DNA of 36,844 bases from Bacillota bacterium (GTDB lineage Bacteria; Bacillota; Negativicutes; Sporomusales; CTSoil-080): positions 1-36,844 of the forward strand of contig JAGGAC010000022.1 of NCBI GenBank assembly GCA_017889635.1, written 5' to 3'. Of this stretch, positions 11,496 to 36,844 are shown one piece after another. Positions within the stretch are counted from its first letter, which is position 1. Each line of letters opens with the position of its first letter. The notes beneath the pieces were generated by a model that ran no database searches, was not told the origin of the DNA, and saw nothing but the letters and a program-made list of their open reading frames with translations. The translations under genes were made by a program, and so were the position numbers.

Positions 11496-11520
11496 AAAAC
11501 CCGCGAAAGTCGCGGGTTTT
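11496..11520 (-). terminator. Terminator of the small hypothetical gene
   Basis: An 11-bp perfect stem AAAACCCGCGA/TCGCGGGTTTT has a 3-nt loop and TTTTGTTG after it on the minus strand. It lies 57 bp past the stop of the gene at 11577-11795. Confidence 0.85.
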
Positions 11521-11576
11521 CAGGCATCTAGCCTTACAAGGTAACATGAATCGTCATAAGCTGGTAATAACTCGCC

Positions 11577-16366: not shown

Positions 16367-17152
16367 TTAATAATATCCTAATGTTCCCTGAACTTTTGCT
16401 CTACGCACAAACCACCCGAAACACAACAGCCCCATTAAACAATATATGAAAGACTGAGAAAAAAGAACAATTAAGCTGCCATCTTGCCACAAACCATATA
16501 GAGAGTGCATATTTATTAAATTATCGCGTAATAAAATTACTCCTTGAGTTGTAGGCAATGTTTTTGCAAATAGCGCCAACCATTTAGGAAAACGCTCTAC
16601 CGGAAGCATTGAGCCATTAAGAAAAAGCAGTGCATTTGCTGTTAACCCTGCAAGTTCTCCCACCCGCTTAAAAACTAGCGTTGCACCTGCAATCACAAAA
16701 CCGAAACCAAACAATCCGGCCATAGTAATAATAAAGATGACTAGTCCCTGCCATTGCAGCGAAAGGGTAATATTTAACCCCCATACCATGACCATCGTAA
16801 ATACTAAAATATTTATTGTTGATGTAATTAATGTGGAAAAAGATCGCCCTATTAATATTAGGGATACTGAAACAGGACTCATAAAAATTTGTTCCAACGT
16901 ACCAGCCTGAGCCTCTCCTAATAGATCTCTACACATACTGGAAATAATAATCGAAGAATATAACCATAATGCGTAACCAATAAGAGTATAAGTAAGCTGC
17001 TCCGAACTAAGCTGTCCCCCACCAGTAATAAAACCTATCCCAACAAAAACAAGCCCCATCATTACTAGCTGCAAAAACGTTTCAAATTTATAGTTCCAGG
17101 CAATTAATAATCCTTTATAAGTTTCATTAAGCATGGTTTTTAATATCATCAT
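16367..17152 (-). CDS. ABC-2-type transporter permease
   Basis: The 261-aa protein has six predicted membrane helices, with the ABC-2 family region GEAQAGTLEQIFMSPVSVS after helix 2-3 and SMLPVERFPKWL before the last helices. It forms the membrane part of an exporter with the ATPase encoded immediately upstream, whose end it overlaps by 26 bp. The start at 17152 (ATGATG) is served by AAGGGGAAA. It is the last gene of a six-gene transport operon next to an NRPS cluster, so peptide export or self-protection is plausible; a lipid or polysaccharide substrate cannot be excluded. Confidence 0.9.
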   Translation of the reverse strand: MMILKTMLNETYKGLLIAWNYKFETFLQLVMMGLVFVGIGFITGGGQLSSEQLTYTLIGYALWLYSSIIISSMCRDLLGEAQAGTLEQIFMSPVSVSLILIGRSFSTLITSTINILVFTMVMVWGLNITLSLQWQGLVIFIITMAGLFGFGFVIAGATLVFKRVGELAGLTANALLFLNGSMLPVERFPKWLALFAKTLPTTQGVILLRDNLINMHSLYGLWQDGSLIVLFSQSFIYCLMGLLCFGWFVRRAKVQGTLGYY

Positions 17153-18125
17153 GATTACTATTTCCCCTTTCGTTTTTAACCAGTTTTAAAAACACTTCTT
17201 CTAAATCCGGTTCTAACGGTGATACCGAAATTAAAACCATTCCCTGTTTTCTAATCTGATCAAGCAAACTATATAGCTTGGTTTTGCTACTAATTTTACC
17301 GGTTAATATCGTCACCTCATTTTCCTCTCTTATACTAAAATTACTTAGTTCACCCTCCATGCGGCCATTAAAAACACCACTTAGCTTAATCTGATAATAA
17401 TCCGGTCCAAAAAGCATCAGCAATTTATTGAGATTTTTATCAGCGATTATTTTACCTTTATGCATAATAACTACACGCTCACAAAGCTCTTGTACCACGT
17501 CTAATTGATGCGAAGTTATCAAAACCGTTTTCTTATAATCCTCGGCTAAACGCTTAAGCAACTTCTTCATTATGTCTGTAGCTTCGACATCAAGACCCAG
17601 TGTCGGTTCATCCAAGATAAGAATAGGCGGATCAGCTACCAGTGCACAGGCAATGGCTACTCTTTGCAACATCCCCCGCGAAAAATTTCGTACAATATCA
17701 TTTCGCCTGTCCCAAAGTCCCAATTCTTTTAGAAGCACTTCTCCCCGCTTTATAATGTCTTTCTTCGAACACCCCTTCAAATTGCCAAAGTACATTATAT
17801 TTTGCCAAGCAGTTAACGGCCAATAAATATTTCTTGTTCCCTCTAATACAACTCCAATTTGCTTCATTGCTTTACCCTGCTCCAATGCTACATCACAACC
17901 ATTAAGCAATATTTTGCCAGCCGTTGGCGTTATCAGCCCACACATCATTTTTATTGTCGTGGTTTTACCGGCACCATTCGATCCTAAAAAGCCAAATACC
18001 TCACCCTTACGTACGCAAAGATTAACGTTATCCACTGCTGTAAAATAATTTTTGCCACTTTTACTGTAGATCTTGCTTATATCTTTGATTTCTACAGCCA
18101 TATCCGGCATGTTATTTTGACTCAA
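17127..18125 (-). CDS. ABC transporter ATPase of the ABC-2 exporter
   Basis: The 332-aa protein has an N-terminal nucleotide-binding domain with Walker A GSNGAGKTTT, signature FSRGMLQRVA (FSRGM in place of LSGGQ, common in the DrrA/CcmA-like group), Walker B ILILDEPTLGLD and the H-loop ITSHQ. A C-terminal extension of about 90 residues (after about 235) is typical of drug-export ATPases. The start appears to be TTG at 18125, preceded by GGGGGGAT; the nearest ATG (18110) is too far from that site. It lies 53 bp after the TolC gene and overlaps the permease gene. Confidence 0.95.
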   Translation of the reverse strand: MSQNNMPDMAVEIKDISKIYSKSGKNYFTAVDNVNLCVRKGEVFGFLGSNGAGKTTTIKMMCGLITPTAGKILLNGCDVALEQGKAMKQIGVVLEGTRNIYWPLTAWQNIMYFGNLKGCSKKDIIKRGEVLLKELGLWDRRNDIVRNFSRGMLQRVAIACALVADPPILILDEPTLGLDVEATDIMKKLLKRLAEDYKKTVLITSHQLDVVQELCERVVIMHKGKIIADKNLNKLLMLFGPDYYQIKLSGVFNGRMEGELSNFSIREENEVTILTGKISSKTKLYSLLDQIRKQGMVLISVSPLEPDLEEVFLKLVKNERGNSNHDDIKNHA

Positions 18126-18178: not shown

Positions 18179-19516
18179 TTAGTCAATCCCTATTGATTTA
18201 TCCAATTTAGCTTTGCTGCTATTATAATCATACAGTGCCTGATGGTAGTTATTCTTGGCCTTGGCAACTGCTAATTGTGAGTCAATAACAACGAGGTTGG
18301 TATTGACTCCTTCTCTATAACGAATCTCGTTAATTTTAAAAGCTTCTTTAGCTTTGTCTACCGCAGCTTTACTTGTTACAATCCTCTCTTCAGCTGCTTT
18401 CAGACTCAAATAAGCCTGACTTACATCCAAGGCCACTGCCTCACGCGATTGCCTTACTTGTTCCAGTGCTTTATCAACTGAGCTTTCCGCTTCTTTCATT
18501 CTGGCTTTGGTAAGTCCGGAATCGAAGACATTTATTGATGCAGTTAAACTAACCATCCAGTAGTCTTGTTTCGCACCAGGAAATTTATCGTCATTCCAAT
18601 TATTACTGCCATTAAAATTGATCTGAGGCAATTTGCTGCTTTTAGCAACTTTCACTCCGCTCTTGGCAAATCCAACCTTGGCTTCCATTTGCCTGATATC
18701 TGGACGATAATTCAGAGCGTGTTTTAGGCATTCCTCAAGAGAAAGCGGGTATTCTTGATAACTTAGCTCATCTTTCACTTTAATTTCACTGTCAAGCGGT
18801 AATCCAATTACGTTTTTTAGGCTGGCAAGCGCTAAATTGTAGTCGTTCTTGGATTTAATAAGTTCCTGCCGAGCATTCACCACTTCTACCTCTGAGCTAA
18901 GTACATCTGCTTTGTTTACTGTCCCGGCATCAAACTGTGTCTGGACGCTGTTCAAATGTAAAATAAGATTATCCAATGCTTCTTGGTTGACTCGTAACTG
19001 CGCATCAGCCTTTAAAACATTGAAATAAGCGGTTAAAGTATCAAATTTTATCTGTTGCTTGGCTTTTCTAACTTCAAGGTCAGCGACTTGGAGGTTATTA
19101 TTCGCCTGATCACGCTGTCCTTCTAAATTTCCCCCTGTATAAAGAGGTACGCTGACACTAATGGTATTGCCAAAAGACGTGTACGTACCGCCAAAAGCAG
19201 TACTCGATATACCAGCAAGTGAAGTACCAGCAAAATACTTTTCCAAAGTAAAAGTAGGAAGTCCCGTTCTAGTATCCTTATGGGTGTATGTCAGGGTGGG
19301 ACCGAACTTCGCCTTAGCCTCAGAAACACCCCAAACTGAGGTTTCTTTATCAGCTTTTGCTATTTTTACACTAAAGTTATTTTTCAGCGCCAGGCTAACG
19401 CTGTCATTCAAAGATAATTCTATCGGCACCGCAAACGCATCATTACTATTTATCAGCAGCATTACACAACTAAATGCTGCAATCAAAAATCTCAACCGGC
19501 TGATTGATCTTATCAT
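18179..19516 (-). CDS. TolC-family outer-membrane efflux channel
   Basis: The 445-aa protein has a signal peptide (RLRFLIAAFSCVMLLINSND, cleavage likely after AFA at about residue 29) and the internal duplication of the TolC family: long alpha-helical hairpins with YFNVLKADAQLRVNQ in the first repeat and AYLSLKAAEERIVTS in the second, alternating with short strands (NTISVSVPLYTGG and YWMVSLTASINVFDSG). It would form a trimeric channel through the outer membrane, showing the host is a diderm. The ATG follows AAGGAGAG. It stands between an HlyD-type adaptor gene and a second ABC exporter and may serve both. Confidence 0.93.
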   Translation of the reverse strand: MIRSISRLRFLIAAFSCVMLLINSNDAFAVPIELSLNDSVSLALKNNFSVKIAKADKETSVWGVSEAKAKFGPTLTYTHKDTRTGLPTFTLEKYFAGTSLAGISSTAFGGTYTSFGNTISVSVPLYTGGNLEGQRDQANNNLQVADLEVRKAKQQIKFDTLTAYFNVLKADAQLRVNQEALDNLILHLNSVQTQFDAGTVNKADVLSSEVEVVNARQELIKSKNDYNLALASLKNVIGLPLDSEIKVKDELSYQEYPLSLEECLKHALNYRPDIRQMEAKVGFAKSGVKVAKSSKLPQINFNGSNNWNDDKFPGAKQDYWMVSLTASINVFDSGLTKARMKEAESSVDKALEQVRQSREAVALDVSQAYLSLKAAEERIVTSKAAVDKAKEAFKINEIRYREGVNTNLVVIDSQLAVAKAKNNYHQALYDYNSSKAKLDKSIGID

Positions 19517-19548
19517 GCTATACTCTCCTTAAAAAATTATCCGACAAT

Positions 19549-20436
19549 CTACTTCAACGGCGTAATAGCGATTTGCGCCGTCATATTCCAAAGCAGCCGT
19601 CCATCCCACGCTTCTGGAGTAATAATTACAGTATAGGTGATATCACCCCGTTTCTTCTCCCCATAGTGGCGAATAAACTTCACCCTACCAGCAATCTCCA
19701 GGTCATTTATGCCGTCAAACGTCAGTTTCACCGGATCGCCCTCCTTGATTTTAGCTACTGACAATTCGGTCAAGTCATCACTTTTCACTTCCCATGCCGA
19801 TTCGTCAGCAATCCGTACCAGCACCTTTCCTATCTCAGCATGCTCACCAACTTTCATATCCAGAAACACAACTGTCCCGTCTATCGGCGCCCTTAGTTCC
19901 GTCTTATCCAATACGTCTTGGGATTCAGACACCTTTTTTTCCCCAGCCGCCAGCTCAGCCTGCGCCTGCACCAACGCAGCTTGCTTTCGCGCTACCTCTG
20001 TCTGAGCTTGTTCGATTTGTTGGCGGGTTGCTGCCCCTGCTTTTTCCAGTCGTTCCTGACGCTTGAGTTCCCGCTCAGCATCCAGCATATTCACTCTAGC
20101 CTGTTCTACAGCTGCTGCCGCCCCAGCTACATTTGAGTGAGCACTTCCAACCCGATTCAGATAATCCTTCTGCACCAGCCGAATAATAGGTTGTCCAGCT
20201 TTTACCTTATCCCCTTCTTTAACCAATACTTCGCCAATCGTTCCATCCACCGGCATAGCTAATTCGACATAGTGTACCGGATATATAATACCTTCAGCCA
20301 ATATCCTCTCATCAGCCTTCACCGCTGGTACATTTCTATTCTCATTTGGACGATTGTTTAACAGCCACCACAAACTTACCATCAGAACAGCAATCAATAT
20401 TAAAATCAACAGCCAATATCGTTTTACAATTGACAT
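19549..20436 (-). CDS. HlyD/MacA-type periplasmic adaptor
   Basis: The 295-aa membrane-fusion protein has an N-terminal anchor helix (about 8-27). A lipoyl-like half ELAMPVDGTIGEVLVKEGDK (about 58-77) is followed by an alpha-helical coiled-coil hairpin (about 95-175, rich in Ala/Glu/Gln) and then the second lipoyl half LRAPIDGTVVFLDMKVGEHA. A beta-barrel domain closes the protein. It links the FtsX-type permease to the TolC channel. The ATG follows AAGGAGAGG; gaps to its neighbours are 24 and 32 bp. Confidence 0.93.
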   Translation of the reverse strand: MSIVKRYWLLILILIAVLMVSLWWLLNNRPNENRNVPAVKADERILAEGIIYPVHYVELAMPVDGTIGEVLVKEGDKVKAGQPIIRLVQKDYLNRVGSAHSNVAGAAAAVEQARVNMLDAERELKRQERLEKAGAATRQQIEQAQTEVARKQAALVQAQAELAAGEKKVSESQDVLDKTELRAPIDGTVVFLDMKVGEHAEIGKVLVRIADESAWEVKSDDLTELSVAKIKEGDPVKLTFDGINDLEIAGRVKFIRHYGEKKRGDITYTVIITPEAWDGRLLWNMTAQIAITPLK

Positions 20437-20460
20437 ATTTTGCCTCTCCTTGTTTAATAT

Positions 20461-22893
20461 TTATTCATAGCTTAATACATCCCGTACGCTCAGCCGAGCA
20501 GCATTCCAAGCCGGCAGTAAACTCGCCATTACCGCTAGCATAGTAGACAACACCAGCCAAATCCCCACCCCCAGGAAGCTAAACGAAAACGTCAGGGGAT
20601 TCTTCAAAAACAGCATCCCCACCTGATAACTTAACATCACCGCTACAGGTACGGCCAAAATCATCCCTGCTGCCCAACTTAATAAGCCAATACAAAGAGC
20701 TTCTACCACAAATACTTTTCCAATATCCAAACTAGAAGCCCCAACAGCTCGCATCACTCCAATTTCCCGTGTCCTCTCTAACACATTAATACCCATCGTA
20801 CCAGCCAATCCTAAAGCCCCCACAACTGCCAGCAACACTGCCATAATAAGTAAAAAAGTAGTGATTATATCAAACTGAGAACGAATAAGTTTTTTCTGTT
20901 CCCAGGTGATAGTCACATTTTTAACTCGCAAACTGTTTTTTTTCAGATGTTCTTCTATACTTCTCCCTAGACTGCTTTGTTCTTTGGCATCTTGATAATC
21001 CGCTACAAGCTGTACCGAACGAGCCCGTCCAGCCTCTTGCACGGCTCCAGCGAGCCACTCGTAAGGAGCGTATACTATTGGTCCTGCCAGAATGCCTTGA
21101 ACAACACCAACTACCGTAAACCTCAGTTTACGGTTTCCCACTATGATAACCGCCGATTCGCCCACCTTTAGCTGCGGGTTGTCTTTAAGCACCTCGGTAT
21201 TCACCACCGCAGCATTCTCATCATCTGGCAATAACCACCGTCCCGCAATAATTTGAGGATTAATCATCTGCGTTTTTACCGGCGGCGCGATAATATACAC
21301 ATTCTTGCTAGCCTCAGTTTCAGACTCCTTCCTCTCATCTGCCAACATTCGACCGGATACTCTGCCCCAACATTCCACCATTTTAACTCCCGGCACTTCT
21401 AATACTGCCTGCTCAATTCGACTAGCCCGATAACTATCGGCAAACTCTATCATTACGTCATAGTGAAAGTAATCCAACGCCTGATCCAACGTTGAGTACA
21501 AAGACGTTCGAACTGAAAACACCGCCATAAATACCGTACCAGCCACAGTCAGCGTCAGCAACGTAAGTGCCAGACGCCCTTTACGTCTAAAGGTGTTACG
21601 AAGTGATAATAATACTGGCCGGGGCAATTTTTTCAGCCGCCCCAGGCCAAAATCAACCATCTTATCTACCCAGCCCTTGGTCCGAATGGCACTGATACCA
21701 TAATCATTAAGTGCCTCCCTAACAGTAATGCCTGTTCCACGCCAAACCGGCCCTAAAGCTGCCATTAGAGGTACCAAAACAGCAACCACTGCTTCCAAAA
21801 TCACAACTCTAGGAGGTAACTCCAATCCCCCAGCATCGAAGTTGAACATTTCAGAAATAAAACCAGTCACCGCCTGAGCAGCCAATGCTCCCAGCGGAGC
21901 AGCCACCACCAGTGACAAAATGCCATACGCTCCTACAAGACTCAGATACATACGTAATATTTGATCCCTGCTCGCCCCAATAGATTTCATAATTCCCACC
22001 TGGCGCACCTGTTGGGCTAAAATTGCCGATACCGTGTTTATCAATAAGAATGTTCCCAGCAACAGTGCCAATACTCCAAGCACTGCCAATAACAACAGTA
22101 GAGCATTGATTGCCCCCTGCATTTGATGTTCCCCGGGTTTATTTACCTGCATCCACGACACCTTAGCGCCGCCCTGCTCCAGCTTTTTCCACGACTGCCG
22201 ACCCACATCCTTAATCGTAGTTGTATCATTATCTTTCAGTACAGCAGGCTCGACTACCAAATTTAGTTGGTTTAATTGACGTGACTCGTCCAACTTTTCC
22301 AAAGTATCCATACTGATATAACCATAATAATTACCGCTGAACGAGCTCGGAGTCTGACTAGGATCATACACAACTCCGGTCACCTTTACAGAACGTTTGC
22401 GCCCGGTAGACGTCTCCACTGTAATTCGGTCTCCTTGCTTCACTCCTAATGCGGCTACCGATGACCGTTCTAAAAGTACATCACCGTCCCCCGGAGGCCA
22501 CGCTCCAGATAAATGACGTACCACGTTTACTTTCTGTTTGATATAATCTGGTATTGCAACCAACACCATCTGCCGCCACTGATCATCGCCGGCCCTGATT
22601 CGCAGATTGACATTGCGCCTCCCCTCAGCAGCCTTGATATCCTTCAGACTGCGGATGCTTTCTACTAATTCTTCATCGAAAGGATCTGTAAATAAACTTG
22701 CGTTAGCCGGGGATGCCGCTACAAAACTAATATTCAAATCTCGTTGAAACATTAGATATGAGCTATAAACCATCCCCACCGCAAACACTCCAACAGAGAT
22801 CGAAAGTACCACAAGAAGTGTACGTATCTTGTTGCCCCAAATATCTGACCATACTTTGCGCCAGCGCGGTGACAATCGAACATAATTGTTCAT
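20461..22893 (-). CDS. MacB/FtsX-type ABC transporter permease, 810 aa
   Basis: This large permease has an N-terminal helix (about 18-40), an extracytoplasmic domain of about 220 residues and three helices near 265-370 with the FtsX pattern [19 protein letters not shown] second core begins near 430, with another large extracytoplasmic domain and three C-terminal helices bearing [19 protein letters not shown]. Two FtsX domains in one chain is the arrangement of LolCE/YknZ-like double permeases rather than of single-domain MacB. Its start overlaps the ATPase stop by 4 bp (ATGA). With the adaptor and TolC it would form a mechanotransmission-type exporter. Confidence 0.93.
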
Positions 22894-23645
22894 AACTCCA
22901 CCGTCCCGTAGCCATCTCTAGCAATCCGCCCCTCAGACACCGTCACAATCCGGCTGGCACAGCAGGCTAAATCCTCATCATGGGTAACCATAAGAATAGT
23001 TTTACCACCCTGAGTCAGTTCTCTGAACAGCTCTATGACTGCTTCGGCAGTCCGCGGATCAAGATTACCAGTAGGTTCGTCCGCCACCAAAAGAGGTGGA
23101 TCGTTGGCCAAAGAGCGCGCGATAGCCACCCGCTGCTGCTGACCTCCGGACAGGCTCGCCGGCACTTTATTTGCCTGATCTCCAACCCCCACTAAATTTA
23201 ACAAATCCATAGCCCGATCTGGTCGCTCAGCCCGATCATAAACATTACAAAAATCCATCGGCAACATTACATTCTCTATCACAGTTAACGTCGGCAGCAA
23301 TTGAAAAAATTGAAACACAACCCCTACTGTACGCCCCCTCCAGACGGCTATCTGGTTCTCAGTCAACGTATGCACCGCCGTGCCTGCTACCCACACTTCC
23401 CCCGAAGTCGGCCGGTCTATGCCGGTAACCATATTAATCAAAGTAGACTTGCCATTGCCAGACTTACCTACCACTGCCAAAAACTCACCATTATCTACCA
23501 AAAGATCTATTCCCTTCAGAGCCACAAACTCACCGGCACCAGTCAAATAAACCTTTCGCACATCCGTAAGTTCCACTGCAACCGCATTTGATTTAGACCT
23601 GGGTACATCCGCAGCCGCCAGCCAAGGCAGTAATTTTCCTATCAT
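22890..23645 (-). CDS. ABC transporter ATPase, MacB/LolD type
   Basis: The 251-aa nucleotide-binding protein has Walker [11 protein letters not shown]-loop [14 protein letters not shown], signature [15 protein letters not shown], Walker [13 protein letters not shown] and H-loop VTHD, the canonical pattern of the MacB/LolD group. The N-terminus is extended by about 25 residues. The ATG follows GGGAGG at 8-bp spacing. It is the first gene of the transport operon; a weak promoter (TTGTGG-17 bp-TAAGAT, minus strand) can be drawn in the 60 bp between it and the upstream terminator. Confidence 0.95.
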
Positions 23646-23787: not shown

Positions 23788-24465
23788 TCAAACAGGCGGC
23801 AAGCTCATAAACGTATATACATACTGAGCAAACTTCTTGCATCCAACTTCAAAAGTATAACCTTCGCCGTAACCAGCCCTAATATTTGTTAACAACCTTC
23901 CTTCAAATTGCCTGGTAGCCTCATGCCAAATAAGTTCAAACTCTAAATAGCTGATATATTCATTCATTAGTGGAAAAAAAGCTTTAAAGGCGCTCTCTTT
24001 CGCCGAAAATACCATTAACAATCTTTCAAGACTTTGCTCTTTTCTAGCCACTACCCATTCAGCTTCTCGTATCGTACATATCAGCTTTATAATATCCATT
24101 GAAACGGTTTCATCAACCATTTCAACATCTAAACCAATCCCTGCGGCATTTTCTTTGCGTGCTACCGCAGCAAGTGCTATTTCACCAGAGTGACTTATAG
24201 CCCCCACTATCCCCGGAGGCCATATAGGTTCATTATTAGCCCCTTTAAGAATAGGAAATTTATTTATGTCGATTTTGCTTAATGCGCTATGAGCAGCAGA
24301 CCTGCCGATGCAAAATTCACTCCGGCGCTTTTGTACGGCTTTAAGACTAAGAAATTCCAATTCTTCCGGATAAAGCATCTTTTCATCATAATCAGCCGTT
24401 GTTTTCATTGAAAATCCAAAATTATTGTTAAAAGGTGATACGATACCACCCAATCCTTTGCACAT
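23788..24465 (-). CDS. 4'-Phosphopantetheinyl transferase (Sfp/EntD-like)
   Basis: This 225-aa enzyme transfers the 4'-phosphopantetheine arm of coenzyme A to the conserved serine of carrier domains, converting apo- to holo-NRPS. The family motifs are all present: FCIGRSAAHSAL near 50, GAISHSGEIALAAVA near 92, the Mg-binding GLDVE near 114 and FSAKESAFKAFFP near 155. Length and motifs fit the EntD/Npt-like group. The start ATG 24465 follows AAGGGG. It is 21 bp behind the DUF362 gene and in line with the NRPS genes, so its natural substrates are most likely their T domains. Confidence 0.93.
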   Translation of the reverse strand: MCKGLGGIVSPFNNNFGFSMKTTADYDEKMLYPEELEFLSLKAVQKRRSEFCIGRSAAHSALSKIDINKFPILKGANNEPIWPPGIVGAISHSGEIALAAVARKENAAGIGLDVEMVDETVSMDIIKLICTIREAEWVVARKEQSLERLLMVFSAKESAFKAFFPLMNEYISYLEFELIWHEATRQFEGRLLTNIRAGYGEGYTFEVGCKKFAQYVYTFMSLPPV

Positions 24466-25694: not shown

Positions 25695-28600
25695 CTAAAT
25701 AAAGCCTACGTTCTTGCAGTGTTCCAACATCAAATTTACTTTTAAACAATCTAGTTCAGGCCATTCAAAATTTAATGCCTGCAAAATGCTTTCGGTCTTT
25801 TGATTCCGTATGATAAAGGATGTTTTGCTCGCTCCTTCAAAAAACACATTAGAATGAACCATAATTCTAGTAATATAGTTTTTAGTTTCTTCATCCTCAT
25901 ACCTTGCATATAAATATTTCACGAACTTGCCCAGAGCAATTGTATCAGCATTTATCCCAGCTTGTTTTAAAAGTTCAGCAAATATAATCATACTGATTTG
26001 GTGGGGATTAAAAATATGATAGGTTTCACCCTGCAAATTTTTCTTATCAAACAATAATACAATTGCCTTAGCAACATAATCTATAAAAGAAAAATTCATG
26101 GTTTTCTCTTTTATTTCCGGAAAATAGCCAAGTTTTATTAAAGATTTTACAATAGTGTAGAAAGCGTTATTCTCTATATTCTCCTGAAAGACACCGGATG
26201 CAGAATCAAACACAAGATTTCCGACCCTGAAAATATTTACATTTAATCCAGCTTGCCGAGCCCTAAGCAAGAATTTTTCCGCTTCCAATTTTGTTGCTAC
26301 ATAATAATTATCTGACTTCTGACCTAAATCACAATCATATTCCGTAAACACCGCCTTGGCCTTTCCATCTATAAATCCACTGCCAATACTTGTAGTCGAT
26401 ATAAAATTATAGCTCTTGGAGGAACCTGTATTTGCAAAATCGACAAGTCTTTCGTTCCCCTTTACATTAACATCAATAAATTCTGAGTAATGTCCATAAT
26501 GTTTTACATTGGCTGCAGAATTTATAATACAGTCGATTTTGCCAGCTAGTTCAATATATTTTTCCGAGGTTAAACCAAAATACTCTTTTGACAAATCACC
26601 GTGAAAGATACACATCCTTGTTTCAAAGCTATCACATTCATTCCTGTTAAGCTTAAAATGAAAATTCAGCTTGGCCCACAACCGTTCTTTTGCCTCGCTA
26701 TCGTTTTTACCTCTTACCGGCACATAAACCATATAGTCTGTGTGTTTTAATAATTGGTACAAAATATGTATGCCAAGATACCCAGTTCCACCAGCAACCA
26801 AAACGTTTTTATAATCCACGGTGTCAGAAAGATCAATTTGCTCATATGCCTGATTTTTTAATCTATAATCACGCAAAGCATTTCGTAATTCACCATCAAA
26901 GCCACTATACTTCCCGCGTGTGGCCGCAACTTCGTCCATCGCTGCCAGCATTTCCTTTAATCTGTCTTTCGAATACTTGATAACATCCGACAGCTTCCTT
27001 ATTGTCTGATATTGGAAAATATCGTTTATTCCGATCTCAAAATCCAGGGCAAGCTTTGCTACAACCTGTATGGCCTTTAATGAATTTCCTCCCAGGGCGA
27101 AAAAGTTGTCGTCAATTCCAACTCTATCTACACCAAGGATTTCCTGCCAAACATTTTGTATTTTATCATCGGCTTTATTTCTAGGGGCAGCATACCTTTC
27201 TCCAGTAGTTCCCCATCCTTCAGGCTGAGGCAATGCCCTTCTGTCAATCTTGCCATTGGGAGTCAAAGGTAATTTGTCAAGCTGAGTAAAATACACTGGC
27301 ACCATATATTCAGGCAGTTCCATTAACATGTATTCTCTCAGCTCGTCGGTTGCCACTTCATGTTCTGCCGCCACATACGCTGCTAAATATTTGTCATCTG
27401 CTTTATCTTGTCTTACAATGACCACCGCGTCCGCTACGGACGGGTGTTTTAACAACCGGCTTTCTATTTCTCCAAGTTCAATCCTAAAGCCCCGGATTTT
27501 GACTTGCTGATCAACCCGGCCTACAAATTCAATATTTCCGTCTGGAAGCCATTTTACAAGATCCCCGGTTCGATACATCAGCTTACCAAGCGCAAACGGA
27601 TTTTCGACAAACTTTTCCGCCGTCAATTCTGGTCTGTTCAAATAACCTCTGGCTAAACCATCGCCGGATATACACAGCTCTCCCGGAGCGCCTACCGGCT
27701 GCAATTTATTGTATCTATCTACAATATAAACTTGCGTATTATCCATAGGCCGGCCTATGGAAGGAAGCACAGAATTATCACTATCCGAACCGACAACACC
27801 CCAGGTTGTAACAACCGTACTTTCGGTTGGACCGTAATGGTTAAACAACCTAAACGGAAGCGTAGAACTTGGTCTACGGCGCAATTTATCGCCGCCGGTC
27901 AGCATAGCCCTCAAGGGAATATTATCGGGCCATTTCTCAATAAGCAAAGCTTCCGCCAATGGTGTCGGCATAAAACATACGGTAATCTTATAATCCTTCA
28001 GCCACTCAATTAGTCTCAACGGAGACATTCTCGTTTCATTATCCGGAATATAAAGCCCTGCACCAGCAAGCAAGTATGGCCATATCTCCCAAACTGAAGC
28101 GTCAAAAGCCTGTCCAGCTACAACAGTAGCCCTGTCCCTTGCGGTTATGTTATATACCCGCTGGTGCCAATATACTAAGTTAGTCAGGCTAGCCTGTTCA
28201 ACCTCAACACCTTTCGGTGTACCGGTTGATCCTGATGTATAGATTACATATGCTCTATCTTTCACAGTATTTTCACACGTTAAATTCGCAGTTTCTCCCT
28301 GGTATAATTCCAAACAATCCAGTATAATGATTTCTCCATTAAAGCTAATTTGATTAACCAAGTGCTTCTGAGTTAATAAAATCCTCGTTCTACTATCCTC
28401 CAACATATAACTGATTCTATTCTCCGGATACTCGGGGTCAATCGGCAGATAAGTTCCTCCGGCCTTCAATATTCCTATAACTCCAAGAATCATTTCCGGA
28501 GACCGTTCAGCCATAATACCCACAATGCTGTTGGCTTTTATCCCCTTATTCCTTAGCACCCGCGCCAGTTGGTTAGCTCTTTCATTTAGTACACCATAAG

Positions 28601-31600
28601 TTAGTTGCCGGTCTAAAAAAGCTACCGCAATATTGTCAGGCGTTTTCATAACCTGTTCTTCAAACAATTCTGATATAACTTTATTTCTTGGATACTCCAT
28701 CTCTGTATGATTGAAAGCAACTAAGAGCTTTTTTTCCTCTTCTGTTGTCACTATGTTTATATCTTTCACCAGTATCCCTGGATTATCAAGCACTTCTGTC
28801 AGCATTGTCTTAATATGGCCTTCAAGCTCCTCAATGAACCATTTATCATAGACCAGCGCATTATAAATAAATTTAATACTTAATTCCCGTCCGGGAATAA
28901 TGACAACATTAAAATCATAATTTGTTTGCTCAAATACTTCACTCCCCTTTATTTCTACACCAAGGTCGCCATTCATTACTTCTTCCAGCGGATAATTTTC
29001 AAACGCCACAATATGATTAAGCAGGGCATCTTTTAAACTTGTCCGTCCCTGTATTTCGGCAAGAGAACAATAGCTATACCGCTCAGAATCTATAACGGCT
29101 TGTTGTACTGCCTGCATCAACTTAACAATCGCTTGACTGCCATCGCACTTTATTCTTACAGGTAAAGTATTAATAAATAACCCTACTATGTTTTCTACGC
29201 CCGCTATTTCATGCGGCCTGCCTGATACAACTGCTCCGAACACAACATCATTTGTGTTATTATACCTGGCAAGCAAGAGTCCCCAGATTGTCTGAAACAA
29301 AGTATTCATAGTTACATTGTTTTTCCGAGTCATATTTTCAAGGCTACATCCTATAGCCTCGTCAATTTTTAATTGATACTCTTCACGTTCATAGCTTCCC
29401 TGTACTGACACACCGCCCTTTTTAGGAAGTAAAGCCGCTTCTTCATAACCACATAAGTATTCATCCCAATAGGCTGCCGCTGCTTTATAGTCCTGATTCT
29501 CCAACCAGCTAATATACTTACTATATGAACATATTTCAGCGATCTCTGGCATCTGTTTCTTCTGTAAAGCTGCATATATTCGGAAAAATTCCTTAAGTAT
29601 AATCCCCAGACACCATCCATCCATAATGATGTGGTGAAAACTCCATATTAACTTGCAGCAATCATTTCCAGTTTGAATTGCGCTCAATCGTATCAATTGG
29701 CCTTCTGAAAGATCAAAGCCTTTTATTTTATCTTGATCTTTAAACGCCTCAATAAATATCTGTTGCTCGTCCACTGATAAATGGGTAATATTCTCAAAAT
29801 TTATACAGGACCTTTGTTCCTTCATAACCACCTGCACTGGACGTGCTATTTTTGCATAAACAAATACCGTTCTAAAGATATCATATTGCTCAATAAGCAT
29901 TTGAAAGCTTTTTTCCAGCCGAGCTATATCCAGTCTACCTGCTATTGAAATAGTTGCTTGTTCAAAATACGCTGATGATTTATTATCTAGTATTGTATGA
30001 TATAACATGCCCTCTTGCATCGGACTCAACGTATATAAATCTTTTATGTTTCTTGTATCCAAATCGCTTAAAGCGGTTTCAAGCTCATCAATTGAGTTTT
30101 TCTTATAAGTAAAATCACTGGGCGTCATCTCTGTATAGTTACGCTTTGCGCAATGATTAATAATTTGAGCTAACTTTTCCTGAAAATTTGCAGCAAATTT
30201 TGCAATTGTTTCACGCTTATACTCGCCGTCATGATATGCAAAAGTTAGTATTAATCTTCCCTGGTTAACCATGCCGTTTATGTCGATAGCATACAAACAT
30301 TCCATATTTGGCGACATACCCAGAGAAACATCCGCAATAGAAAATCCATCATTATCCAGATCTATATCAAATTGCCCCAGATAATTGAAACTTACTTCCG
30401 GCCTTAAGTTGAACCGTAATGATGCTTTATTCTCCGGCAAAGTCAGATATCTTAGGATTCCATAACCGATTCCTTTGTTTGGAATCCGCCGAAGACTTTC
30501 TTTTACTGATTTTATCCTGTATGTGAGATCTCTGCTTCCGCTTAAATCCAGTACCACAGGGTATTGAGCAGTAAACCATCCAACTGTCCTTGATATATCT
30601 ATGTTATTGGTTATTTCCTCTCTACCGTGTCCCTCAAGATTAATTAATACTCTTTCTTCACCAGTCCATTCCTTGACCGCAAATCCCAATGCCGCAAGCA
30701 ATATATCATTAATTTCAGTATTATAGGCTTGACTCACATCTTTAAGCAATCTTGTCGTGTCATTTGCAGTTAACTCTACGCGGACTTGTTTGATGTCTTT
30801 ATACTTCCTTTCGGTAATTGGCCGATCTTTAGGAAGTGGATTTATGTTAATTGCTTCAACGTCAGCCCAATAATCCACCTCACTTAATAACGCCTGACTG
30901 TTAGCATACCTAGACAACTGTGCCGACCAATCATAAAACGAATCCGTCTTGGCAGGAAGTTTAATTTCCTCATCCCTTGAAGCCTGCATATACCCATTAA
31001 AAAGATCCTGAAGTATAATCCTCCAGGATATCCCGTCAACAACTAAATGATGAATCACCAGCAAGAGGTAATCTCCCTCATTAGTCTTAAAGAGGCCAGC
31101 CTTAACCAATGGCCCATTATAAAGATCGACGCTTTTCTGAAGCCTATCGGCCTCTGCTTCGATATTTTCCAAAAAGTAGTCTTGGTTCATTAAATCAACG
31201 GTCTCCAATGAATACAGGTTTCCTTCAATTCCCCGGTTAAAGAGAACTATATCGTCACTTTCTCTTCTTGCCACCATTCGTAGTGCGTCATGATGCTCAA
31301 GCAGCTTTGTAAATACACTTCGTAAAATGTTTTCAGCAAAACCTTTAGAATGATGAAGTAAAACCGATTGATTAAAATAATGCTTTTCGGCAAAGCGTTG
31401 CTCAAACAACCAACGTTGCACCGGTGTCAAACTTGTTTTTCCTTCAACAATACCTTGATCCGCAATATGTACTACTTCTTTTACCCAGCTGCTTACTTCT
31501 TCAATTACAGGGTGCTTAAACAAATCCTTCATTTCAAGTTTTAGACCATAAGCATTTAATTTTGACAATACCTGTATCGCTTTTATCGAGTCTCCGCCCA

Positions 31601-34577
31601 AATGAAAAAAGTTATCCCTTACCCCGATCCCTTCCGTCTTTAATGCATCCTGCCACACATTAACCAATACTCTTTCCTTTTCATTTCTAGGGGCTATATA
31701 CTCCACACAGGACTCTATACTACAGTCAGAATCAGGCAACGCTGCCCTGTCAATTTTATCATTAAGTGTCAAAGGCATACTATCAAGTTGGATGATGTAG
31801 GTCGGCACCATATATTCCGGCAGTTCCTTCAACAAATGTTTTCTAATCTCATCTACTTCTAGTCTATCTTCTGAAACAAAATACGCAGCCAAATATTTAT
31901 CGCCTTGTTTATCCTCCTTTACAATTACAACCGAATTCTCTACTGATTGATGATCTGCAAGCCGCGCTTCTATTTCTCCCAGTTCAATCCTAAATCCCCT
32001 GATTTTTACCTGTGAGTCGCTCCTTCCAATGTACTCTATAGTACCATCAGACCTCCATCTTGCCAAATCACCTGTCTTGTACATCCGCGCCCCTGCACAA
32101 TAAGGGTTGGTTACGAATTTTTCTGCCGTCAACTCCGGTCTATTCAGATAACCCCGTGCCAGTCCGTCTCCCCCTATGCACAATTCTCCGACCGCGCCAA
32201 TAGGCAGCAGACGGTTCTTTTCATTAAGAATAAATATCTCCGTATTGCTTATTGGACAGCCTACCGGAACCGTACCATTAGCCATTTCCTGCTCATTACA
32301 TTTCCAGGTTGTTGCAATAACCGTCGCCTCCGTAGGACCATAGGCGTTGCTATAGTTAACTTTATCCTTCCATTTATTAACCAGCCCTTTCGTAATAGCA
32401 GAGCCACCTGTAAATAAGTGCCTTAGTTTAGCCATTTGCTCCGGTTTTATCCCCTCCAGATAAGTAGGTGGCAAAAGTGTTACCGTTATTTCATTTTTAT
32501 TAATTAATTTTTCAAATTCTGTAAGATTATGAATGGTTTCCCGGCTTGCTATGTAAAGCGTTGCTCCGACCAGTAAGCTCGCGAATATTTCCCACACTGA
32601 AGCGTCGAAGGAACTACTAGCAAATTGCAGCATCCTATCCTGCTCGCCCAACTGATAGCTCTCTTTAAAAAAGGTTACTAAGTTTACAATTCCCTGATGC
32701 TCAATCATAACACCTTTTGGTTTACCTGTTGAACCAGAAGTATAGATTACATATGCCAAGTCTTCCGGCGTATTTATATTGCGCGGATTGCTATCGTCAC
32801 CTTCATTCAGGATAATATCTTCAATATTTATCACTTTTCCCTGATAAACAACGCAATCTTTCAAATCTCCTTGCGTCAACAAAACACTTGCAGAACTATC
32901 CTCCAACATATATTTAATTCTGTCCGGCGGATAGCCTGGATCAATCGGTAAATAAGCACCGCCCGCCTTTAGCACACCTAAAATACTGATAATCATCGCG
33001 CTTGAGCGGTCAACCATTATACCCACAAGACCATCAGGTTTTACACCATTCTGTATCAACACTTCAGCCAATTGATTGGCTTTGGAGTTCAACTCCCTGT
33101 AAGTCAGTCGGTGATTGTCATAAACGACCGCTAATTTCTCCGGTGTTTTTGCCACCTGTTCCTCATACAACGCCTGAATGGTCTTTTCCTTAGGATATGG
33201 GGCCTTTGTAGCATTAAACCTGTCCAAAAGCTTGTGTTTTTCTTCTTCCGGTATTATTTCTATATCAAAGATACTTTTCTCACTGCTCGTAAGCACTTCT
33301 TCTAGCATATATGTAAAATGAGCGGCCACATTTTTGATCGGAATAAACTTTTCAAACACGCTGAGCTGATAATCAAAATCAATCTCTACATCCCGATCAC
33401 TGTTATATTCTCTCACAAATATCGTTAATGCATTCCGTTCATGTTGATGGGCCATGCTTACAATATCATAATTACTAGCAGTAATAAAATTTTCACTAAA
33501 ATCACGGTTAATATAGGAAAGAGAAATATCAAAAATATTACTTTTATCCTTAACCTGATTAAAAACCGTCCGATATATTTCTCCAAACGGAAACTTTTGA
33601 TGCCTGTAACATTCCATAAGATTACTTTTTATTATTAACATCAGTTCTTTAAAACTTAGTTCTTCTGCCAACTTAATGCGTAAGGGTATAACATTCGCTA
33701 AAAGTCCCATTACTTGCTTGTACTTTGCTTTCCCTCGGTTCATAATAGGAACACCAATAACAACGTCATCCTTATTGCACACGCGGCTAAAATAGATAAA
33801 CAACACCGCCAAGATAAAATGAAAGGCTGTACATCCGTTTGCTTTGCTAAATGCAACAACCTTATCATACAAACTCCTTTTTATACTAAAAGTAAATCTG
33901 TCACTCATGGGTAAATCGCCATGAACATCTTGATTCCTGTTAAAAAGCGACTCCGGTATTATTTCATATCTTTCCTTCCAAAATTCTTTATCCGCTAAAA
34001 AAGTTTGGGATGAAAGATACCTTTTATTTTCGTCAATAAATTCCGTATAGGAACAGACCATTTTATCCGGCTCTATAATTGAGGCAGCCAATTGGTTATA
34101 AAATTCAATAACCTCTTTATACAGCATAGCTATGCTAAATCCATCACTAATGATATGATGAACTTTTACAAACCAAAAATAGTTATTTTTATCAGACTTA
34201 AGCAAAGCAAACTGAAATAAATTATCTTTAAATTCAAATGGTTCCAAGAATCTCTTTCTCATCCACTTAAGGCATGCTTCATTCGCCTTTTCTCTGCCCG
34301 AAAAATCATAAAAAGGAACGTCATAAATTACCTCTGATAATATTTTTAAATAAGGCTCGCCTCTTTTCTCAAATACTCTAATCCTCAATGAATCGTTATC
34401 CTGTATTAATCTATCAATGGCTTTAACAAAGATGTCTTGGTTGATTTTCCCCTTTATATCCATATATCCGCCTAAATTATAGATAGGCTTTCCCGGATAC
34501 AAACACTGTTCCAACCATACGTCCTTTTGATAAGAAGTTAGTGGGTGCTCAGTATACGAAACCCCTGTCTCATTCAT
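25695..34577 (-). CDS. Two-module NRPS, C-A-T-E-C-A-T-R
   Basis: This 2960-aa nonribosomal peptide synthetase has, with approximate residue positions: C1 (10-440, active site HHIISDG at 140-146), A1 (455-945, YTSGSTGKPKG), T1 (Ser997 in LGGDSIKA), epimerase E (1050-1490; HHLVVDG at 1176, EGHGRE, GWFTAQYP, NYLGQFD), C2 (1510-1940; HHIIMDG at 1648), A2 (1955-2445), T2 (Ser2499 in LGGNSLKA) and a terminal thioester reductase R (2580-2960; AGGTGYLG near 2590, YVATK). Aligned by eye with GrsA, the specificity residues are DAWLFGAVIK for A1 (hydrophobic, uncertain) and DAWFLGHVVK for A2 (one change from the known leucine code DAWFLGNVVK). Predicted output: acyl- or peptidyl-D-Xaa-Leu, released by NAD(P)H reduction as aldehyde or alcohol. 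Start ATG 34577 with GGGAGG before it. Confidence 0.97.
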   Translation of the reverse strand: MNETGVSYTEHPLTSYQKDVWLEQCLYPGKPIYNLGGYMDIKGKINQDIFVKAIDRLIQDNDSLRIRVFEKRGEPYLKILSEVIYDVPFYDFSGREKANEACLKWMRKRFLEPFEFKDNLFQFALLKSDKNNYFWFVKVHHIISDGFSIAMLYKEVIEFYNQLAASIIEPDKMVCSYTEFIDENKRYLSSQTFLADKEFWKERYEIIPESLFNRNQDVHGDLPMSDRFTFSIKRSLYDKVVAFSKANGCTAFHFILAVLFIYFSRVCNKDDVVIGVPIMNRGKAKYKQVMGLLANVIPLRIKLAEELSFKELMLIIKSNLMECYRHQKFPFGEIYRTVFNQVKDKSNIFDISLSYINRDFSENFITASNYDIVSMAHQHERNALTIFVREYNSDRDVEIDFDYQLSVFEKFIPIKNVAAHFTYMLEEVLTSSEKSIFDIEIIPEEEKHKLLDRFNATKAPYPKEKTIQALYEEQVAKTPEKLAVVYDNHRLTYRELNSKANQLAEVLIQNGVKPDGLVGIMVDRSSAMIISILGVLKAGGAYLPIDPGYPPDRIKYMLEDSSASVLLTQGDLKDCVVYQGKVINIEDIILNEGDDSNPRNINTPEDLAYVIYTSGSTGKPKGVMIEHQGIVNLVTFFKESYQLGEQDRMLQFASSSFDASVWEIFASLLVGATLYIASRETIHNLTEFEKLINKNEITVTLLPPTYLEGIKPEQMAKLRHLFTGGSAITKGLVNKWKDKVNYSNAYGPTEATVIATTWKCNEQEMANGTVPVGCPISNTEIFILNEKNRLLPIGAVGELCIGGDGLARGYLNRPELTAEKFVTNPYCAGARMYKTGDLARWRSDGTIEYIGRSDSQVKIRGFRIELGEIEARLADHQSVENSVVIVKEDKQGDKYLAAYFVSEDRLEVDEIRKHLLKELPEYMVPTYIIQLDSMPLTLNDKIDRAALPDSDCSIESCVEYIAPRNEKERVLVNVWQDALKTEGIGVRDNFFHLGGDSIKAIQVLSKLNAYGLKLEMKDLFKHPVIEEVSSWVKEVVHIADQGIVEGKTSLTPVQRWLFEQRFAEKHYFNQSVLLHHSKGFAENILRSVFTKLLEHHDALRMVARRESDDIVLFNRGIEGNLYSLETVDLMNQDYFLENIEAEADRLQKSVDLYNGPLVKAGLFKTNEGDYLLLVIHHLVVDGISWRIILQDLFNGYMQASRDEEIKLPAKTDSFYDWSAQLSRYANSQALLSEVDYWADVEAININPLPKDRPITERKYKDIKQVRVELTANDTTRLLKDVSQAYNTEINDILLAALGFAVKEWTGEERVLINLEGHGREEITNNIDISRTVGWFTAQYPVVLDLSGSRDLTYRIKSVKESLRRIPNKGIGYGILRYLTLPENKASLRFNLRPEVSFNYLGQFDIDLDNDGFSIADVSLGMSPNMECLYAIDINGMVNQGRLILTFAYHDGEYKRETIAKFAANFQEKLAQIINHCAKRNYTEMTPSDFTYKKNSIDELETALSDLDTRNIKDLYTLSPMQEGMLYHTILDNKSSAYFEQATISIAGRLDIARLEKSFQMLIEQYDIFRTVFVYAKIARPVQVVMKEQRSCINFENITHLSVDEQQIFIEAFKDQDKIKGFDLSEGQLIRLSAIQTGNDCCKLIWSFHHIIMDGWCLGIILKEFFRIYAALQKKQMPEIAEICSYSKYISWLENQDYKAAAAYWDEYLCGYEEAALLPKKGGVSVQGSYEREEYQLKIDEAIGCSLENMTRKNNVTMNTLFQTIWGLLLARYNNTNDVVFGAVVSGRPHEIAGVENIVGLFINTLPVRIKCDGSQAIVKLMQAVQQAVIDSERYSYCSLAEIQGRTSLKDALLNHIVAFENYPLEEVMNGDLGVEIKGSEVFEQTNYDFNVVIIPGRELSIKFIYNALVYDKWFIEELEGHIKTMLTEVLDNPGILVKDINIVTTEEEKKLLVAFNHTEMEYPRNKVISELFEEQVMKTPDNIAVAFLDRQLTYGVLNERANQLARVLRNKGIKANSIVGIMAERSPEMILGVIGILKAGGTYLPIDPEYPENRISYMLEDSRTRILLTQKHLVNQISFNGEIIILDCLELYQGETANLTCENTVKDRAYVIYTSGSTGTPKGVEVEQASLTNLVYWHQRVYNITARDRATVVAGQAFDASVWEIWPYLLAGAGLYIPDNETRMSPLRLIEWLKDYKITVCFMPTPLAEALLIEKWPDNIPLRAMLTGGDKLRRRPSSTLPFRLFNHYGPTESTVVTTWGVVGSDSDNSVLPSIGRPMDNTQVYIVDRYNKLQPVGAPGELCISGDGLARGYLNRPELTAEKFVENPFALGKLMYRTGDLVKWLPDGNIEFVGRVDQQVKIRGFRIELGEIESRLLKHPSVADAVVIVRQDKADDKYLAAYVAAEHEVATDELREYMLMELPEYMVPVYFTQLDKLPLTPNGKIDRRALPQPEGWGTTGERYAAPRNKADDKIQNVWQEILGVDRVGIDDNFFALGGNSLKAIQVVAKLALDFEIGINDIFQYQTIRKLSDVIKYSKDRLKEMLAAMDEVAATRGKYSGFDGELRNALRDYRLKNQAYEQIDLSDTVDYKNVLVAGGTGYLGIHILYQLLKHTDYMVYVPVRGKNDSEAKERLWAKLNFHFKLNRNECDSFETRMCIFHGDLSKEYFGLTSEKYIELAGKIDCIINSAANVKHYGHYSEFIDVNVKGNERLVDFANTGSSKSYNFISTTSIGSGFIDGKAKAVFTEYDCDLGQKSDNYYVATKLEAEKFLLRARQAGLNVNIFRVGNLVFDSASGVFQENIENNAFYTIVKSLIKLGYFPEIKEKTMNFSFIDYVAKAIVLLFDKKNLQGETYHIFNPHQISMIIFAELLKQAGINADTIALGKFVKYLYARYEDEETKNYITRIMVHSNVFFEGASKTSFIIRNQKTESILQALNFEWPELDCLKVNLMLEHCKNVGFI

Positions 34578-34605
34578 GTTATTATCCTCCCTCAAGCTAT
34601 TATTG

Positions 34606-35868
34606 CTACTTCAACAAGTATTCAGCTGTCAGCACTTGGTCAAATAAATTAAATACTTCCTGAGCATTATAAAGGTCTTTTGACAATGACATCTCCATGC
34701 ATAATTTTCCAGAAATAGAGGACGACACCAACAAAATCGACTGCGATTTGAAATAAAAATAAACCGAGTCTACCATTTTTTCCATAATCGGATACGATAT
34801 AACACCTAAATTAGAATACGTCAGTGAAAAATTCCCCAGATTAGTTCTTTCAGGTATAGTCTTTTTGCACATTTCCAAGCATTGCTTTTTAGCTTTTTCA
34901 TATGTGGAAATAGCAGCCAGAACGCGTGACAGACTATATGGGATTCCCCGTTTAAACCACTTAAATGCGCCTTTTACCTGTCTTTCCATATCTTTTTCCC
35001 GAAAAAGCTGCACTGGAAGACTTGCAATCAAGTTTCCGGGCGTTTCTCCCGGCAAGTAAGGCACCAGTGGCTGCAGATCCATCGGCATAGAAAGCAAAAC
35101 ACGCCTCTTCCCCTGATCATACTGCAATAAGGCCTGGGCTAAAACTTCACACATATACTCGCTTAACGTTACTCCTTTTTGTTTACACCTCCGCAGTAAC
35201 GTTTCAGTATCCTCCTGATTAATGGTGTACGACTTGGTAGAATAATCGTTACTTTTAGCAGGCCTTTTTGCATAACTTAAATCCACGGTATCTTCAATCG
35301 CGGTTTTGCCTGAACTATAAAAAAAATCAATAAGAAAAACCGGCAGCCATAAAAAGGCGCCGATTTTTTTTAATATACGTATACTCTTCTGCCAGGCAGT
35401 TTCCATGACCGCTGTTTTAATAATACGATGTTCACCACTATAATATTGAAGCCATTTTTGAATCCAAAAAACCAACCCCCGCCCATTTGCCAAGATGTGA
35501 TTCATACAAATAACTACCGTATTATCATTCACAACGGCTATGTGAAAAGGAAGGCGGGTATTGGTCGGGTAATATTGGCTTATAATTGTTTCCCGATCAT
35601 ACTTTTGGGCAAGTTGCTTATCTTCAAAGTTAAGCAGTCGCTCAAGCTCCTCATGAGAAAACCTTCCCCAATAAAACCTATTTTGTTCAGGACATTCGAT
35701 AATCTTCGTCTGCAGTAACGGATTTCTAACAATCATTTCTCTGTAGCTTATAGCCAGCTTACTAATATCAATTATTTCTTTCAGAACCACAGTTGCCATC
35801 ATATTGTTCGATGAATTAAATTCTTCCGTCCCTAGAAAATACACCCCCGCCAATTGAACCAACTCCAC
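34606..35868 (-). CDS. Stand-alone condensation-like acyltransferase
   Basis: The 420-aa protein resembles the condensation/PapA/wax-ester-synthase acyltransferase superfamily. At residues 123-129 it has NHILANG where the family has HHxxxDG: the second His (His124) and Gly are kept, but the first His is Asn and the Asp is Asn. The C-terminal half shows SMPMDLQPLVPYLPGETPGN and the superfamily-like TYSNLG. It is either an acyltransferase using the single His or a non-catalytic partner. Start GTG 35868 with GGGGTGG before it; no suitable ATG. It sits 63 bp behind one NRPS and 28 bp before the next, so it belongs to the pathway and might acylate the product or hand a chain between assembly lines. 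Confidence 0.8.
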   Translation of the reverse strand: MELVQLAGVYFLGTEEFNSSNNMMATVVLKEIIDISKLAISYREMIVRNPLLQTKIIECPEQNRFYWGRFSHEELERLLNFEDKQLAQKYDRETIISQYYPTNTRLPFHIAVVNDNTVVICMNHILANGRGLVFWIQKWLQYYSGEHRIIKTAVMETAWQKSIRILKKIGAFLWLPVFLIDFFYSSGKTAIEDTVDLSYAKRPAKSNDYSTKSYTINQEDTETLLRRCKQKGVTLSEYMCEVLAQALLQYDQGKRRVLLSMPMDLQPLVPYLPGETPGNLIASLPVQLFREKDMERQVKGAFKWFKRGIPYSLSRVLAAISTYEKAKKQCLEMCKKTIPERTNLGNFSLTYSNLGVISYPIMEKMVDSVYFYFKSQSILLVSSSISGKLCMEMSLSKDLYNAQEVFNLFDQVLTAEYLLK

Positions 35869-35931: not shown

Positions 35932-36844
35932 CTAGCAATTTGAGGGTATCGAAATACGCTGTAAAATTTCTTGCATAATCTTAGCATTTTCTTCGACATA
36001 TCGAGGCTCTAACATAGACTCATGAGCCCCAAATCCTTCATATTTTAAAAATTTTCCGGTAGTTTTTTGCGCCCATTCATTCACCTTCGACATATCTTGT
36101 TTATTAGAAGAATATATATGATATATATTGGCCATTATTTTTTCCTTGTTAAGCAAGGTATTAAGGTATTTTAAATAATCGGCTGTTTTACTTTGCATGA
36201 ATTGTGCTATATTCCCTTTCTCTTGAGAAGATATCTCCATATTCGTCAGATAAGCATCAAATTGTTTCATTAAAGCATCCATAACCTCAAGGCTTATCTC
36301 TACATACTGACAATCTAATAAAATTATTTCTGCCTGATAGCCTTGTTTTTCTAATTCTCTGGCTACTTCATAGGTTAACGTTCCCCCTGCAGAAAATCCG
36401 ACCAATATATAAGGGCCTTGCGGCTGTACAGCGATAATAGATTTTACATAATCTCTAATTTTATCTTCGGTTTCGATTAAATTGAAGCAAAATAAAGTAT
36501 AATCCGCTAAATAACCAGCCAAATGCCTGTATATTAAACCAAGAGGCACTGCTGGTGGAAAGAAAAACAAATTGCAACCATTATTATCATTAGCATTATA
36601 TTTAATATAATTGTTATAGATGCCAACCTTATCCCCTTGCAGTATACAAGTAGTAAATTCTTTTATATTGGGGGTTTTAAAAATTTGTTCATAGATTACA
36701 TCCAGACAAAATTCTTCACGTACCTTAGCGATAAGGGTTATAACCTTTAGAGAATGACCACCAAGTTCAAAGAAGTTATCTTCAATCCCGACCTTTTCAA
36801 CACCTAAAACCTCCTGCCAGATTTTCGCCATCTTTTCTTCCGCT
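35932..36844 (-). CDS. NRPS C-terminal end: T and thioesterase (partial)
   Basis: The open frame runs off the window at 36844, so this is the 3' end of a larger NRPS. A carrier domain (WQEVLGVEKVGIEDNFFELG, Ser in GGHSLK) is followed by a type I thioesterase of about 220 residues with nucleophile motif GFSAGG, an acid in LLDCQYVE and a catalytic His in GFGAHESML. Such TEs hydrolyse or cyclise the finished peptide. It is the most upstream visible gene of the cluster. The missing 5' modules, and whether a promoter lies before them, cannot be seen. Confidence 0.93.
   Translation of the reverse strand, partial: AEEKMAKIWQEVLGVEKVGIEDNFFELGGHSLKVITLIAKVREEFCLDVIYEQIFKTPNIKEFTTCILQGDKVGIYNNYIKYNANDNNGCNLFFFPPAVPLGLIYRHLAGYLADYTLFCFNLIETEDKIRDYVKSIIAVQPQGPYILVGFSAGGTLTYEVARELEKQGYQAEIILLDCQYVEISLEVMDALMKQFDAYLTNMEISSQEKGNIAQFMQSKTADYLKYLNTLLNKEKIMANIYHIYSSNKQDMSKVNEWAQKTTGKFLKYEGFGAHESMLEPRYVEENAKIMQEILQRISIPSNC

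Follow-up and report, generated by a model that had tools for sequence, protein, structure and literature searches.

A predicted lipodipeptide synthetase with starter, epimerisation and reductase domains, and its undescribed companion protein, in a Negativicutes operon

Introduction

Several described synthetases share parts of the architecture reported here. Myxochelin MxcG (C-A-T-R) combines a starter-type condensation (C) domain with a terminal reductase (R), and the synthetase of our window has an NCBIfam match to it, but MxcG uses an aryl starter, has a single module and makes a siderophore. The aureusimine synthetase AusA (A-T-C-A-T-R) is, like ours, a two-module enzyme with an SDR-type terminal reductase; however, AusA has neither a starter C nor an epimerisation (E) domain, and its dipeptide cyclises. 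With both domains present, the synthetase described here was rejected as a pyrazinone line of the AusA type (A-T-C-A-T-R, free amine). The starter domains of rhizomide RzmA and fengycin FenC/PpsA fall in the same clade as our first C domain (C1), but those lines end in a thioesterase (TE), whereas ours ends in R after two residues. The gut dipeptide-aldehyde NRPS clusters (ruminopeptin; Guo et al. 2017; PMC12327764) are likewise short lines, and their products are dipeptide aldehydes; compared with these we observe an E domain together with a DCL-type second C domain (C2), a companion protein (P0002), a TE-ended lipopeptide line in the same operon, and Negativicutes or Paenibacillus hosts, and the likeness drawn here is one of function.

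Here we analyse a window of 36,844 nucleotides (contig JAGGAC010000022.1 of assembly GCA_017889635.1, from a Bacillota bacterium of the Negativicutes), which is the whole of contig C103 in a 4.54-Mb draft genome. A preliminary description had placed a C-A-T-E-C-A-T-R synthetase at 25695-34577 and proposed a D-Xaa-Leu aldehyde or alcohol as its product. We find a known kind of synthetase in a new combination, that of starter C, E and R domains with an undescribed companion, and our search of the literature on Pelosinus and Negativicutes lipopeptides and on Paenibacillus peptide aldehydes returned nothing on this cluster.

Results

An intact two-module synthetase

Counted from its TTG, the open reading frame (25695-34595(-)) encodes 2966 aa (Table 1). 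Pfam recognises three Condensation, two AMP-binding and two PP-binding domains and one NAD_binding_4 (reductase) domain, and a domain-by-domain HMM pass gave the order C-A-T-C(E)-C-A-T-R, whose second 'C' falls within the E clade of our tree; the domain order and coordinates first proposed are thereby confirmed. In an alignment with five homologues, HHxxxDG is kept in C1, E and C2, as are the carrier motifs GGDS and GGNS, while EGHGRE of the E domain is kept except for EGHGRD in one homologue, and the reductase motifs GGTGYLG, STTS and YYVxTK are kept with GSTGYLG replacing the first of them in two of the five. All core motifs are therefore intact, as had been stated, and the two places where the preliminary description saw that its reading might fail proved sound: the reductase active site is intact on the alignment, and C1 keeps its HHxxxDG. 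The R domain is C-terminal, of the SDR type, follows a T domain and has a Rossmann motif with catalytic Thr-Tyr-Lys; it aligns to 4f6c with the Rossmann, Thr and Tyr/Lys motifs in common, and with GGTGYLG, STTS and YYVATK present the proposed reductive release holds as a prediction. Against the 77%-identical homologue in genome G044, Ka/Ks is about 0.1-0.2 in each domain and near 0.17 in C1. Purifying selection acts on all eight domains, and the intactness and conservation of the synthetase lie far beyond chance.

Table 1. Features of the window on and around the synthetase gene.
Feature	Coordinates	Strand	Remarks
Second ABC transporter (DrrA-like ATPase, ABC-2 permease)	16367..18125	-	
Tripartite exporter (ABC ATPase, MacB/FtsX-like permease, HlyD-like adaptor, outer-membrane channel)	18179..23645	-	
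Sfp-type phosphopantetheinyl transferase	23788..24465	-	
DUF362 and 4Fe-4S ferredoxin-like protein, 381 aa	24487..25632	-	
C-A-T-E-C-A-T-R synthetase	25695..34577	-	ORF open from TTG 34595; ATG 34577 likelier start
R, terminal reductase	25746..26810	-	GGTGYLG / STTS / YYVATK
T2, carrier	26970..27179	-	GGNSL
A2, code DAWFLGHVVK (predicted Leu)	27213..28661	-	
C2, DCL-type condensation domain	28713..30047	-	HHIIMDG; tree placement
E, epimerisation domain	30093..31448	-	HHLVVDG and EGHGRE; tree placement
T1, carrier	31470..31685	-	GGDSI
A1, code DAWLFGAVIK (predicted hydrophobic residue)	31716..33164	-	
C1, starter (lipoinitiation) condensation domain	33216..34562	-	HHIISDG; tree placement
P0002, 420 aa, condensation/AATase-like acyltransferase candidate	34606..35868	-	conserved NHxxxNG
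T-TE end of larger NRPS, cut by contig edge	35932..36844	-	continues in C27 and C109 of the same genome

The first condensation domain is of the starter type

In a maximum-likelihood tree of 110 C and E domains, C1 groups with starter domains (SH-aLRT 100), namely fengycin C1, RzmA C1 (PDB 7c1k), EntF and the first C domains of Paenibacillus tyrfis and Desulfosporosinus lines; fengycin C1 itself was recognised by its place after dacB and before DUF1360/GH10 genes, and by its first A code. When the long branches RzmA and EntF were removed for a second tree, C1 again joined the starters with SH-aLRT 100, and constraining it to the DCL or LCL clade was rejected with p-AU 0.022 each, a moderate value for which the tool warns of long branches. 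C2 falls within the DCL clade, next to a DCL domain of a large PKS-NRPS line discussed below, and the E domain within the E clade, so the C-domain phylogeny suggested earlier now types C1 as starter and C2 as DCL. Starter domains of the RzmA type use acyl-CoA, and acyl-CoA or acyl-ACP are the donors for starter domains of C1's kind (PMC7804268). The preliminary description had allowed the chain to begin from either an acyl group or an upstream peptide; because C1 sits in the starter clade and the synthetase exists without any upstream line, the evidence leans clearly towards an acyl start. Since C1 is of the starter type, residue 1 is predicted to be N-acylated; its D form is also predicted, in keeping with the earlier proposal, from an E domain with its motifs and a DCL-type C2. 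We also tried to read acyl length from the gate residue of RzmA, which is I/V/L/L/L/F across the family, but fengycin C1, which takes long chains, also has L and the residue was thus indecisive.

Adenylation codes and the predicted product

Adenylation codes were taken from the alignment, and as a control EntF gave DVWHFSLVDK, which we take to be the serine code expected for it. The A2 code DAWFLGHVVK occurs in 5/5 Negativicutes synthetases and is one change from DAWFLGNVVK, so that it was rightly called a near-perfect leucine code. The A1 code is more variable, being DAWLFGAVIK in the window and in G044, DAWLIGAVIK in Pelosinus fermentans JBW45, Lucifera and genome G009, and DAWLVGAVIK in Paenibacillus. 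It lies near DAWLYGAVMK, a leucine code from the early literature. It had been described as unusual, and in our literature search no exact match to DAWLFGAVIK was found among characterised codes; its make-up points to a hydrophobic substrate (Leu, Phe, Val or Ile). DAWFLGNVVK, the reference for A2, is the commonest leucine code (PMC12283262). On these predictions the product would most likely be N-acyl-D-(Leu/Phe/Val/Ile)-L-leucinal or leucinol, and we regard its class as well predicted. Because A1 and A2 of the Paenibacillus plasmid pHD03 are 96% identical, while the Negativicutes A2 instead resembles the leucine modules of the neighbouring large line (66-68% identity), the data suggest that module 2 of the Negativicutes synthetase may have been replaced by recombination.

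A separate line within the operon of a large PKS-NRPS

The contig edge cuts the window inside a larger operon, a fact that the preliminary description missed, as it did the companion gene. The final 99 bases of the window recur exactly at the start of contig C27, whose own final 99 match those at the end of contig C109, with no further exact copies; these 99-bp overlaps look like assembly-graph junctions around one ~1 kb repeat that is passed through twice, so that the contigs would run C109 - repeat - C27 - repeat - C103. The large line is accordingly split over C109:9294-33998, C27 and the window (35932-36844), and the A-domain cores of its modules 6 and 8 must be near-identical and seem collapsed into the missing ~1 kb repeat. 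This arrangement is confirmed by the complete JBW45 genome, where the same gene order is unbroken, as it is in Lucifera butyrica, and in the C/E tree each C domain of C27 pairs with its own counterpart in modules 2 and 3 of the corresponding large-line gene in a related genome (G008). The line runs FAAL, then ACP-KS-AT-KR-ACP with four modules, then A-T-E, then three modules and a TE, amounting to eight residues, and its TE has an intact GxSxG with the His at the expected place. By its architecture the large FAAL/PKS-NRPS is complete in itself, with a TE of its own, and its predicted product is a separate lipo-octapeptide. Within it the A-T-E gene starts with only the C-terminal half of a C domain (C109:28031-28800; L010:8031 on) and the preceding gene ends in a nearly full C domain, as also in JBW45, Lucifera and several P. 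tyrfis genes; this split C domain is possibly a docking device.

A type II thioesterase and a LoaP-like NusG paralogue precede the large line. Against NCBIfam NF033641 the LoaP-like genes scored 118.1 and 122.2 bits, just short of the cut-off (125) and well clear of other NusG families, and the putative antiterminator heads the operon (C109:4250-4789 in L009; L055:4025-4543(-)), being kept also in a genome without the large line.

In that genome, G044 (completeness rated at 100%), P0002, the R synthetase, DUF362 and a MacB-type exporter come straight after the LoaP-like gene and type II TE; with only 5 C/E domains genome-wide, it has no large line. In G009 seven genes separate the P0002-synthetase-DUF362 unit from the large line. 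Plasmid pHD03 and 8 Paenibacillales genomes also carry P0002 paired with an R-terminated NRPS, and the stretches read there contain no large NRPS; in pHD03 (L066:19997-21263) an apparent frameshift splits the C1 region, so the annotated NRPS starts late. Because G044 has the synthetase without a large line and the G009 unit stands seven genes away from one, we read it from gene content as a second, autonomous line within the operon of the large PKS-NRPS. Genome G033, from a relative of the same order, has a 4929-aa C-A-T-C-A-T-E-C-A-T-C-A-T-R synthetase (G033:C2 ~140-160 kb; L091), another R-terminated lipopeptide-type line, with no P0002 in the stretch read.

Among the operon neighbours, the DUF362 protein always adjoins the synthetase in Negativicutes clusters (75-83% identical), and none was seen beside it in Paenibacillus. 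The tripartite (MacB-type) exporter is kept with the synthetase in G044, and the second ABC transporter occurs only in clusters also holding the large PKS-NRPS. Elsewhere in the window, 10265-11527 encodes a 420-aa protein with two P-loops, PRK06851-like.

A companion protein tied to the reductase-terminated synthetase

P0002 has an invariant MNHxxxNG and belongs to a family that has no name. NHxxxNG is found in 14/14 members, keeping the His and replacing Asp by Asn relative to HHxxxDG, and profile comparison (hhalign, probability 69%) aligned it with HHxxxDG of C domains. The alcohol-acetyltransferase (AATase) profile weakly matched 4/6 members (best E 1.6e-4, below the Pfam cut-off), three Paenibacillus members had no Pfam match, the sequence had no match in the PDB, and the structure model has a pLDDT of 40. 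These weak profile matches and the aligned motif recall the alcohol acetyltransferase, PapA and condensation superfamily, from which P0002 departs in its Asn for Asp in all 14, its scores below Pfam cut-offs and its place outside any named family. We saw neither a carrier domain nor a reductase motif in it.

Strong homologues were found in 5/300 Negativicutes genomes, 8/395 Paenibacillales genomes and 1 Paenibacillus plasmid (pHD03, the sole match among plasmids), with none in phages, none in the GTDB family of P. tyrfis, and, in a 398-genome phylum sample, none beyond the window's own genome, where only weak NRPS-like matches appeared. The five Negativicutes genomes are exactly those in which the synthetase was found, and an R-terminated NRPS adjoins P0002 in 14/14 strong homologues, being a single C-A-T-R module in G1067, ending with the contig in G944 and G869, where the T-R end is visible, and reading in several frames in G1006. 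G1062 (L118) keeps only a broken P0002 remnant with no adjacent NRPS, and here the pair is decaying. On this co-occurrence P0002 is strictly tied to the R synthetase; its substrate is probably the reduced product, whose terminal alcohol it would, on the simplest view, acylate. The preliminary description had called such products rare in Negativicutes, which stands for this type (5/300 genomes by P0002), but the class has other R-terminated NRPSs (G033 by domain order; G027 and G048 by matches reaching into R).

Discussion

Taken together, the domain types, codes and gene neighbourhoods make it quite probable that the gene encodes an autonomous lipodipeptide synthetase. C1 would join a fatty acyl group, from acyl-CoA or acyl-ACP, to a hydrophobic amino acid (Leu, Phe, Val or Ile) on T1, the E domain would convert this residue to the D form, and the DCL-type C2 would couple it to L-leucine on T2. 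R would then release the chain with NAD(P)H as N-acyl-D-Xaa-L-leucinal, or as leucinol after a second reduction, and P0002 would probably act on this product, the simplest option being acylation of the terminal alcohol. Within this scheme we infer the A1 substrate, the acyl length, the aldehyde or alcohol state and the role of P0002.

In the window's genome, JBW45 and Lucifera the two lines lie side by side and point the same way, which could mean that the R synthetase serves as the final station of the large PKS-NRPS, adding two residues to the octapeptide to give a lipodecapeptide aldehyde or alcohol. However, the large line already ends in an intact TE, C1 is of the starter and not the LCL type, G044, pHD03 and Paenibacillus carry the synthetase alone, and seven genes lie between both lines in G009, and we consider this reading very improbable; an extension of the large line was rejected on C1 type, TE and stand-alone copies. 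Nor does it seem at all likely that C1 is silent and that synthesis starts from the amino acid of module 1, with a free dipeptide aldehyde as the product, which would then cyclise to a pyrazinone as in AusA or gut dipeptide-aldehyde lines. The architecture downstream of C1 does resemble AusA, but C1 retains an HHxxxDG that is conserved in all homologues and has a low Ka/Ks, and to our knowledge AusA-type lines include neither an E domain nor a DCL-type C2. Pyrazinones do arise from some gut lines (PMC12327764).

A different matter is the role of P0002, where the reading of the gene as an autonomous lipodipeptide synthetase would be unchanged. Instead of being a tailoring O-acyltransferase, P0002 may assist at the start, by handing the acyl group to C1, or at release, by working together with R, a possibility that we hold to be somewhat doubtful. 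It also stands beside a single-module C-A-T-R line and so is independent of a second module, and its similarity is only to the C-domain superfamily; yet starter C domains such as that of RzmA work without such a helper (PMC7804268), and neither a carrier domain nor a reductase motif was seen in P0002. More broadly, we tentatively suggest that P0002 and the R synthetase might form a mobile two-gene system common to Negativicutes and Paenibacillus, making a new class of small reduced lipopeptides acylated at both ends (N-acyl by C1, O-acyl on the reduced end by P0002); P0002 would then open a new acyltransferase family.

The synthetase yields a clear product prediction, and P0002 can be used to search genomes for this type of synthetase, which has so far turned up in two distant Bacillota groups. 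G044 reveals the minimal gene unit and which transporter accompanies the synthetase, and with the same pair of P0002 and R-NRPS in Paenibacillus the chemistry is testable in easily grown bacteria amenable to gene deletion. Moreover, since two separate lines with different release domains share one operon, one may ask why their products, a lipopeptide and a small lipodipeptide, would be made together.
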